Below, piece after piece: positions 27,134-29,793 of a stretch of DNA of 39,616 nucleotides. The notes under the pieces were generated by a model. That model ran no database searches, was not told where the DNA came from, and saw only the letters and a list, made by a program, of their open reading frames with translations. Positions within the stretch are counted from its first letter, which is position 1; every line of letters starts with the position of its first letter. The stretch is from positions 1 to 39,616 of the forward strand of contig VGZO01000040.1 in NCBI GenBank assembly GCA_016872555.1, read 5' to 3'. The translations under genes were made by a program, and so were the position numbers. Source of the stretch: Planctomycetota bacterium (GTDB taxonomy: Bacteria; Planctomycetota; Planctomycetia; Pirellulales; UBA1268).

Positions 27134-27790
27134 TCAGAAGGCGCGGCGTTCGGCCAGGGCGTCGGCGAGCATGTCACGATTGGCATGCTCGAGGGGGGTG
27201 CCGACCGTCAGCCCACGGGCCAGCCTGGTGATCGTCACGGGGAGCCCGGCGAGCCGCTGGACGACGGCCAGCGCCGTCGCATCCCCCTCGACGCTCGGCG
27301 TCGTCGCCATGATCACCTCGCGAACCGCGCCTCCCCGGATCCGGGCGACGAGGGACTCGATGGCGAGCCGCTCCGGACCGATGCCCGCCAGCGGCGACAG
27401 CCGGCCGCCGAGGACGTGGTAGACGCCACGGTAGTGCCCGGCTTCCTCGAAGGCCGCCAGGTCGCGGACCCGCTCGACGACGCAGATCGTGGCCAGGTCA
27501 CGGCGCGGATCGACGCAGATCGAGCAGCGTTCCTGCTCGCCGAGATTGCCACACACCGTGCAGGGGCGAAGGTCCTCACGCACGGCGCGGATGGCGTCGG
27601 CGAACGCCAGCGCCTCGGCGGCGGGCATCTGCAGGACATGGTGGGCGAGCCTCTCTGCCGACTTGCGGCCGATCCCCGGGAGCCCGGCGAAGGCGTCGAC
27701 CAGGCGCCCGATCGGCCCGCCGACACCCTCGGCCACGGCGCGCGGCGTGCGCCGCCCGGGCCGGTCCCGTGGGGCCTGCTCGTCAGCCAT
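27134..27790 (-). CDS. recR: Recombination protein RecR
   Basis: This 218-residue protein has the RecR order: helix-hairpin-helix (AFAGLPGIGRKSAERLAHHVL), C4 zinc finger (CTVCGNLGEQERCSIC), then a Toprim domain (TICVVERVRDLAAFEEAGHYRG, GIGPERLAI) and EVIMATTPSVEGDATA with a C-terminal Walker-like end. RecR works with RecF and RecO in loading RecA at gaps. The ATG at 27790 follows a strong AGGAGGGG and overlaps the dnaX stop by 8 bp. About 20 extra residues precede the usual N terminus. The adjacency to dnaX is widely conserved. Confidence 0.96.
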   Translation of the reverse strand: MADEQAPRDRPGRRTPRAVAEGVGGPIGRLVDAFAGLPGIGRKSAERLAHHVLQMPAAEALAFADAIRAVREDLRPCTVCGNLGEQERCSICVDPRRDLATICVVERVRDLAAFEEAGHYRGVYHVLGGRLSPLAGIGPERLAIESLVARIRGGAVREVIMATTPSVEGDATALAVVQRLAGLPVTITRLARGLTVGTPLEHANRDMLADALAERRAF

Positions 27791-29663
27791 CGGGCTCCCC
27801 TCCTGAGGCTTCCGCGGCCATCCCCACCGCATCGCCGCCCACGGGCTCCGTCGCCGGCACGACGGCGACCGCGGCACCGGTGCCGTCGACCTCGCGGGGC
27901 CGGGGCGGGTCGACCCGGCGGATGGAACCGTCGAAAAGTTCACACGCCTGTCGGACGAGCGGATGCGCGGTCGCGGCGCGGACCAGCGCCGCCTGCGAGA
28001 GCCCGGCGCCGCTCCCGGCGTCGGCCTTCGGGCCCGGGGACGAAGCCCCCCCGGCGTCCGCCTCGTCGGCGGCGAGGTCGACCGCGACGCTCGCAGGACG
28101 CCCGACGATCCCGACCAGCGCCCGCTGGAGCCCCGTGACCACGTCGGAACCACGGAGAAAGTCGAGCGCCATCCGCGCCCCGGCGGGCAACGTGACGGCG
28201 AGCCGGCCCTCGTGCCACACCGCCTGCACGGCGAGGTCGGCGAAATCGGCGGCCAGACCGCCGACGATCCGGCCACACTCGCGCCACACCACGAGCGGCT
28301 CGGCATCGGCACTGACTCCGGGGGCGACAGGCGCGGAGGCCGCAGGCGCTGCCGACGGCTGCGGCACGGCGAACGCCGGCGCTACCGCGTGCGGGGCCGG
28401 CACGGCCGCAGTCAGGTCAGCCGTTTTTTTTTCGCGCCGCTCCGGCGGGCCCGCGGCCGGGACCGCGCCCGCCGGTGCCGACAGCGTGCCGACGAGGGTG
28501 GCCAGCCCGTCGAGGTCCTCGAGTGCCGCCAACCGGACCACCGCCATCTCGGCGAGCACCGTCGGGTGGGCGCTCGAGCGCATCCGCGCCAGTGCCTGGT
28601 CGACGATCTGCAGCATCGCCAGGACCGTGGCCGTGCCGAGCCGGGGTCCGGCGTCGAGGAGATCGATCCCCAGGCCGTCCCCTTCCCGGAGCGCCTCGCG
28701 GCCGGAGCCGACGCTCGCCACCAGGCAGTCACGCAGCGCCCCGAGGATCTGCTCGAGCACGCCGCCGCAGTCGGCCCCGCCGCGGAGGGCGGCGTCGAGT
28801 CCGGCCAGCGCCGCGCGCGGATCGCGGTCGAAGATCGCGCGGAGGATAGCGCCGACCAGTTCGTCGCGGCCGGTGCCGATGAGGGCATGGACGTCGTCGA
28901 TCCCGATCTCGCGCGGCGTGCCGTCGCCCACGATGCCGCCGAGCAGCTGCTCGAGGAGCGACTGGCTGTCGCGCATGCTGCCGTTGGCCCGCCGGGCGAC
29001 GAGGTCGATCGCCGGGGCCGTGATCGCCATCCCCTCGGCCGCGACGATCTGCGCGAGCCGTCCGGCGATCGCCGGCGCGTCGACGACGTGGAAGTCGAAC
29101 CGCTGGCAGCGCGAGAGGATCGTCACCGGGAGTTTGTCGGGCTCGGTCGTGCAGAGGACGAACTTGACGTGCGGCGGCGGCTCCTCGAGCGTCTTGAGGA
29201 GGGCGTTGAACGCCTCGCGCGTGAGCATGTGGACTTCGTCGATGATGTACACCTTGAACCGCCCCCGCGCCGGCCGGACGGCGACGTTCTGGCGGAGCTG
29301 GCGGATCTCGTCGATGCCGCGGTTGCTGGCGGCGTCGATCTCGAGGACGTCGATGTCCTGGCCGCCGGCGATCGCCAGGCAGGCGTCGCAGGCGTCGCAC
29401 GGCTCGGCCGCCGGACCGCGCTGGCACTGCAGGGCCTTGGCGAGGATCCGCGCGGCACTGGTCTTGCCCACGCCGCGGGCGCCAGTGAACAGGTAGGCGT
29501 GCCCGACGCGCCCGGACTCGATCGCCCCCGAGAGGCCACGGGCGACGTGCTCCTGGCCGACGAGATCGGCGAAGCGCTGGGGCCGATAGCGGCGTGCGAC
29601 CACCCGGTACCCGGCCGCCTGCTCCCCCTCCCCGGCGACGGAGTTCCGATCGGGAGGGGGCAT
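27783..29663 (-). CDS. dnaX: DNA polymerase III subunit tau (gamma by slippage)
   Basis: This 626-residue clamp-loader ATPase has Walker A GARGVGKTS (61-69), a four-Cys zinc module (QCQRGPAAEPCDACDACL), Walker B IIDEVHML, and sensor regions CTTEPDKLPVTILSRCQRF and NGSMRDSQSLLEQ. The C-terminal tau-specific part is Ala/Pro-rich then ordered. The ATG at 29663 follows GAGGTGAT by 5 nt. Codons 411-414 contain a run of nine As (GAA AAA AAA ACG). A one-base insertion or deletion there leads to a stop within six codons, which would give a gamma-like product of about 415 residues. The gene lies between the SRP RNA and recR. Confidence 0.96.
   Translation of the reverse strand: MPPPDRNSVAGEGEQAAGYRVVARRYRPQRFADLVGQEHVARGLSGAIESGRVGHAYLFTGARGVGKTSAARILAKALQCQRGPAAEPCDACDACLAIAGGQDIDVLEIDAASNRGIDEIRQLRQNVAVRPARGRFKVYIIDEVHMLTREAFNALLKTLEEPPPHVKFVLCTTEPDKLPVTILSRCQRFDFHVVDAPAIAGRLAQIVAAEGMAITAPAIDLVARRANGSMRDSQSLLEQLLGGIVGDGTPREIGIDDVHALIGTGRDELVGAILRAIFDRDPRAALAGLDAALRGGADCGGVLEQILGALRDCLVASVGSGREALREGDGLGIDLLDAGPRLGTATVLAMLQIVDQALARMRSSAHPTVLAEMAVVRLAALEDLDGLATLVGTLSAPAGAVPAAGPPERREKKTADLTAAVPAPHAVAPAFAVPQPSAAPAASAPVAPGVSADAEPLVVWRECGRIVGGLAADFADLAVQAVWHEGRLAVTLPAGARMALDFLRGSDVVTGLQRALVGIVGRPASVAVDLAADEADAGGASSPGPKADAGSGAGLSQAALVRAATAHPLVRQACELFDGSIRRVDPPRPREVDGTGAAVAVVPATEPVGGDAVGMAAEASGGEPDG
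28424..28432 (-). promoter_or_regulatory. A9 slippery run in dnaX (candidate tau/gamma switch)
   Basis: Nine consecutive As on the coding strand encode Lys412-Lys413 and the adjoining codon bases. With one extra A the reading becomes E-K-K-N-G-stop; with one A missing it becomes E-K-K-R-L-T-stop. A GGAG lies about 7 nt upstream of the run. The arrangement parallels the A9 run in Thermus thermophilus dnaX (transcriptional slippage) and the A-AAA-AAG site in E. coli (ribosomal frameshifting). Confidence 0.8.
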
Positions 29664-29683: not shown

Positions 29684-29793
29684 GGATGCCGATGAGAGGC
29701 CCTCCGCACAAAGGAGCGACTGCTTATGGCTGCTGCGGTTAGGCCCTGACCAGGTTCGCAGGCCCCCATCGCAGGGGCCTCTCATCGGCATCC
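29684..29793 (-). ncRNA. ffs: Signal recognition particle RNA (small bacterial type)
   Basis: On the minus strand the sequence contains the SRP helix-8 core: GGTCAGG, then GCC-TAAC-CGC, then AGCAGCC. Its ends form a perfect 19-bp stem (29684-29702 with 29775-29793), giving a hairpin of about 110 nt like 4.5S RNA. It binds Ffh and directs membrane protein targeting. The location upstream of dnaX-recR is seen in many bacteria and supports the call. The apical loop reads UAAC rather than GGAA, with a C-C opposition below it. The ends are inferred from the stem. Confidence 0.9.

Follow-up and report, generated by a model that had tools for sequence, protein, structure and literature searches.

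A run of nine adenines in the dnaX gene of a planctomycete of the order Pirellulales is probably a site of programmed transcriptional slippage, of the kind found in Thermus thermophilus dnaX. We put the probability of this reading at about 0.86, chiefly on comparative evidence from 159 dnaX genes of the class, which supports the slippage interpretation of the original prediction. The window, as we call the whole 39,616-nt stretch of DNA that was analyzed, reads gccgTTTTTTTTTcgcg on its plus strand, with T9 occupying exactly positions 28,424–28,432 and hence A9 on the minus strand, inside the dnaX reading frame (27,783–29,663, minus strand). The sense codons around it are CGC GAA AAA AAA ACG GCT GAC CTG, where R410, E411, K412, K413, and T414 are the residues at the run; the recoded counterpart of the intact run is GAGAAGAAGACG. 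Such a run had been called very unlikely by chance in coding sequence this rich in GC, and the counts agree: in this 72%-GC window it is the sole run of at least seven A's on either strand, 0.04 matches are expected by chance, and 0/100 shuffles reach it. The whole 4.47-Mb genome holds two A9/T9 sites, the dnaX run being one, and genomes across the order usually hold 2–20. The other site (L152 positions 1,501–1,509; C4:33,705–33,713 in its own genome) is a coding-strand T9 near the C terminus of a 474-aa secreted-looking protein (GAG GCT TTT TTT TTG AGG). Because A9 is also present in three genomes of the same genus (G013, G014, and G015), the dnaX run is not an artefact of a single assembly.

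The gene encodes a 626-aa tau-like subunit gamma/tau of DNA polymerase III. It matches TIGR02397 at 1.6e-118 over residues 19–378, the Pfam AAA, lid, and domain III models, and the E. coli gamma/tau chains at 1e-82. Domain III (PF12169, residues 256–385; 28,509–28,898, minus strand), with which the part retained in gamma ends, stops 26 codons before the A run. Tau is a single uninterrupted reading frame that stays open for 638 nt past the run, and both other frames close almost at once. In the −1 frame, entered by a message with A10, a TGA lies 4 nt after the run (28,417–28,419, minus strand), so that GAA AAA AAA AAC GGC TGA would be read as ...KKNG* and give a gamma-like product of 415 residues. 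In the +1 frame, entered with A8 or A11, a TGA lies 9 nt after the run (28,412–28,414, minus strand), and the A8 message GAA AAA AAA CGG CTG ACC TGA would give ...KKRLT*, 416 residues. These counts bear out the earlier statement that both shifted products end within six codons at about residue 415, close to the size of E. coli gamma, which is annotated in MG1655 as a two-piece CDS of ~431 codons. The short products would lack the tau-specific C-terminal domain, whose core (28,068–28,313, minus strand; pLDDT about 97) has a KH-like arrangement in an AlphaFold2 model of the tau C-terminal part (model residues ~40–118, pLDDT 90–97). Profile and fold comparisons of this part gave weak matches to DnaA domain I, DciA, and the E. 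coli tau C-terminal domain, while Foldseek with the whole model returned no E-value below 0.001 and VIA Z-scores to many KH-like folds were middling. The modeled part fits a tau-specific domain, and its fold assignment is only suggestive.

In the proposed mechanism, RNA polymerase would slip on the T9 template and yield mRNAs with 8, 9, 10, 11, or more A's. Messages with nine A's, or nine plus any multiple of three, would be translated normally into the 626-residue tau, and any other number would lead the ribosome to one of the two TGA codons within 12 nt. The resulting gamma of 415–416 residues would retain the ATPase and domain III and lack the tau C-terminal domain. The run, the two stops, and the domain layout are read directly from the sequence; that slippage occurs, in what proportion it yields the two proteins, and what gamma does are inferred.

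A close relative of this site is present in most dnaX genes of the class. We located dnaX in 72 genomes of the family, in further genomes of the order, class, and phylum, and in 80 named loci, and scored each gene by the length of the longest A run that its linker contains. An A9 or A10 occupies the same linker in 135/159 dnaX genes of the class, a set that includes complete single-contig genomes; five have A7 or A8 and none has 11 or more, so that the length distribution is sharply bimodal, with a gap at 7–8 and a ceiling at 10. Within the family to which the window belongs, 52/53 genes carry A9 or A10 (44 with A9, eight with A10, and one with A8), as do most of the 67 genes from other families of the order (35 A9, 16 A10) and most of the 39 from other orders of the class (20 A9, 12 A10). 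Among 39 genes from the rest of the phylum, four have a run of at least nine. The suggestion that an A run with close out-of-frame stops should be conserved in related planctomycetes thus proved strongly positive. Two of the named loci carry a site also seen in our genome sets: that of L004 (Pirellulales M30B53) is the same as that of L122 in the family, and the A9 of L009 (Gemmata sp. IIL30) is the same as that of L261 in the class. Of 63 named loci outside Planctomycetes, two have a run of at least nine. One, L062 from Ignavibacteria, has A9 at about codon 399, from which the shifted-frame stops are 6 and 10 nt away, and is a likely independent case; the other, L023 from Desulfobacterales, has A10 far downstream in dnaX.

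Selection is seen not only on the run but also on the stops behind it. Stops in both shifted frames occur within 30 nt in 103/141 genes, whereas shuffling the downstream codons gave a mean of 9.2 such genes and a maximum of 17 over 300 rounds. Related sequences are not independent, which weighs against such counts. Dereplication at 70% identity left 42 genes, of which 34 have both stops within 30 nt (mean 3.6 and maximum 10 over 500 rounds of shuffling). The nearer stop in these 42 genes is in the +1 frame in 23 cases and in the −1 frame in 19, a near-even split as expected for polymerase slippage in two directions. Within the family, the conserved stop is the TGA 9 nt after the run: 47/51 genes have a +1 stop within 15 nt. 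A −1 stop at that distance is mildly enriched (11/51 genes versus 5.5 in shuffles), and one within 60 nt is general. Selection across the class, on the run itself and on the stops of either shifted frame, is what the comparison shows.

Two explanations would leave the run without a role in expression, and both fare poorly against these data. The first holds that it is a neutral or mutational accident, a product of replication slippage or of assembly error; homopolymers do grow by slippage, and many of the relatives are metagenome assemblies. Yet the same length recurs in an ORF-preserving state throughout the 135 genes, complete single-contig genomes among them, the genomes concerned contain few such runs at other places, and the stops in both frames are selected. 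We therefore rejected chance or assembly error on the conservation of the run and the rarity of A9 runs elsewhere, and give this explanation next to no credence. It is scarcely more credible that the run's only role is to code for a basic patch of Lys-Lys within the linker, with AAA codons arising by chance. Nearly all family members do have Lys-Lys here, but in the codon alignment both lysine columns are AAA in 52/52 family genes, as against 8–28% AAA at six other conserved lysine columns of the family's DnaX and a third-position A frequency of 9.6%. Relatives encoding the same Lys-Lys with AAG, which would have spoken against a slippery site, were accordingly not seen in the family. Depending on the lineage, the first A of the run falls at any of the three codon positions, with 18 phase changes on the dnaX tree, and the residues flanking it vary as well; because phase and flanking residues differ between lineages, conservation does not lie in the peptide. 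Nor does a protein constraint predict the strong enrichment of off-frame stops. The uniform AAA and the changing phase led us to reject constraint on Lys-Lys at the protein level.

The remaining alternatives involve the ribosome. In one, programmed −1 frameshifting of the type known from E. coli dnaX, ribosomes would slip on A_AAA_AAA and terminate at the −1 TGA to give gamma. An in-frame heptamer of this type lies inside the window's A9, as one does in any A9 run, the window's −1 stop comes only 4 nt later, and −1 stops are enriched class-wide. An A7 would suffice for such a mechanism, however, and A7–A8 runs are rare where A9–A10 is the rule; moreover, the +1 stop is selected equally and, in the family, more strongly. 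The original prediction had also pointed to GGAG (28,440–28,443, minus strand) as a possible Shine–Dalgarno stimulator. The motif is indeed present 7 nt before the run, but support for ribosomal frameshifting did not follow from it: among 141 relatives, Shine–Dalgarno-like motifs are not enriched over shuffles (30 versus 25 for matches of at least 4 nt; 1 versus 5.7 for at least 5 nt), and no hairpin stands out downstream. Folding of the downstream sequence gave z = +1.37 for the window and a mean z of −0.10 for 71 relatives in a test of low power, as the E. coli control itself reached just −0.77. Stops in both frames, a threshold at nine A's, unenriched Shine–Dalgarno motifs, and, as far as this weak test goes, unenriched hairpins together favor polymerase slippage over directional ribosomal frameshifting, which we consider unlikely as the source of gamma. 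A less improbable variant, though still a minority view in our estimate, is that transcriptional and ribosomal slipping act jointly and that gamma is the sum of the two routes. Long A runs are prone to both, as discussed for poly-A sites in one report (PMC3711429), and the heptamer is in place, but the ribosomal share is required by none of our results and the stimulators were not seen.

Polymerase slippage at this site resembles, and departs from, several known ways of making two DnaX proteins. In T. thermophilus, slippage on A9 in dnaX, with stops in both frames, yields gamma and tau at ~1:1 (PMC5009743, PMC1088944), so that the parallel drawn in the original prediction rests on published work. 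As in Thermus, the window has nine sense-strand A's in dnaX, tau in one reading frame, and close stops in both others, and gamma is predicted to arise when translation terminates once the conserved clamp-loader part has been made. Unlike in Thermus, the site belongs to a different phylum and spans a whole class as A9 or A10 in all three codon phases, and its slippage is predicted. With E. coli it shares the gene and the predicted outcome, a short gamma of ~415–431 residues beside tau. E. coli uses −1 ribosomal frameshifting at A_AAA_AAG with a Shine–Dalgarno-like element and a stem-loop, whereas here the homopolymer is longer, selection favors stops in either shifted frame and not just in −1, and Shine–Dalgarno motifs are unenriched, as are hairpins in the low-power folding test. 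Our literature search on dnaX slippage, realignment, and frameshifting turned up the Thermus, E. coli, and GeneTack cases and none from a planctomycete, though GeneTack's list of nine species with 10 A's or a pilot study of recoding genes (Sharma 2011) may include one. The two-ORF dnaX genes found by GeneTack, reported from other phyla (PMC3711429), have a poly-A run of 10 at the same place in dnaX, and transcriptional realignment was proposed for them. There a slip is needed for tau; the window's dnaX encodes tau in frame, would need the slip for gamma, and has no 0-frame stop directly after the run. In Caulobacter, gamma comes from proteolysis of tau (PMC5009743), and the same final protein pair, predicted here, is reached without a sequence signal.

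Among our genes, that reversed layout is seen in two planctomycetes outside the class alone. In both (L316 and L320), A10 precedes an in-frame stop 9–11 nt away and a reading frame of 170 or 218 codons in −1, which in L320 ends in a tau-like HPLI...FD-type motif. These two apparently need a slip for tau, and the run in Planctomycetes would thus serve gamma in some lineages and tau in others, which suggests that either protein can be made through it. Seven other planctomycetes outside the class (L315, L317–L319, and L321–L323) have short DnaX reading frames of 377–419 aa and no long A run; these may be gamma-only genes or use another kind of frameshift.

Beyond the family, roughly 20% of the class is without it: a run of at least nine is absent from 16/67 genes of the order's other families and from 7/39 genes of the class's other orders. 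L217, L224, and L229, with other members of the order, are among these run-less cases, having lost the run or never had it. No A_AAA_AAG was found in the linker of run-less relatives, which carry just GGGAAAG, TTTAAAC, AAATTTR, or short A7 sites, few of them with a −1 stop nearby. We identified no alternative mechanism for these relatives, most of which have no other slippery site in the linker, and gamma made by slippage therefore appears dispensable in some lineages. By analogy, proteolysis as in Caulobacter could be what they use. Over 201 genes the tree needs 24 changes of run state, so the site came and went repeatedly, gains and losses being indistinguishable on the tree. Sister pairs with and without the run are natural comparisons that might reveal the importance of gamma.

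For dnaX, programmed slippage has been documented in Thermus, with predictions for a handful of further genera, and the short gamma subunit has long been debated as dispensable. The comparative signal described here, in which predicted dnaX slippage is the rule in a whole bacterial class, argues that gamma is under selection. Cultured members of the class, such as Gemmata, make slippage directly testable.

The effects may extend to the next gene. The ATG of recR (27,134–27,790, minus strand; named from its protein sequence and gene order rather than by a family scan) overlaps the dnaX stop at 27,783–27,790 (ATGGCTGA), with no ybaB between the two, unlike in E. coli. The overlap suggests translational coupling, which gamma-producing mRNAs would lose. 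As off-frame mRNAs would end translation ~620 nt before the dnaX stop and recR start, slippage might also set RecR output. A broader and rather doubtful scenario is that an ancestral, class-wide Planctomycetia slippage site, drifting in phase, sets the tau:gamma ratio and, through this coupling, RecR output. If true, slippage would tie clamp-loader composition to recombination-repair capacity. On the other side of dnaX, directly upstream and on the same strand, lies a 4.5S SRP RNA gene (29,688–29,786, minus strand; Rfam RF00169, 49.1 bits), whose end is 25 nt from the start of dnaX.
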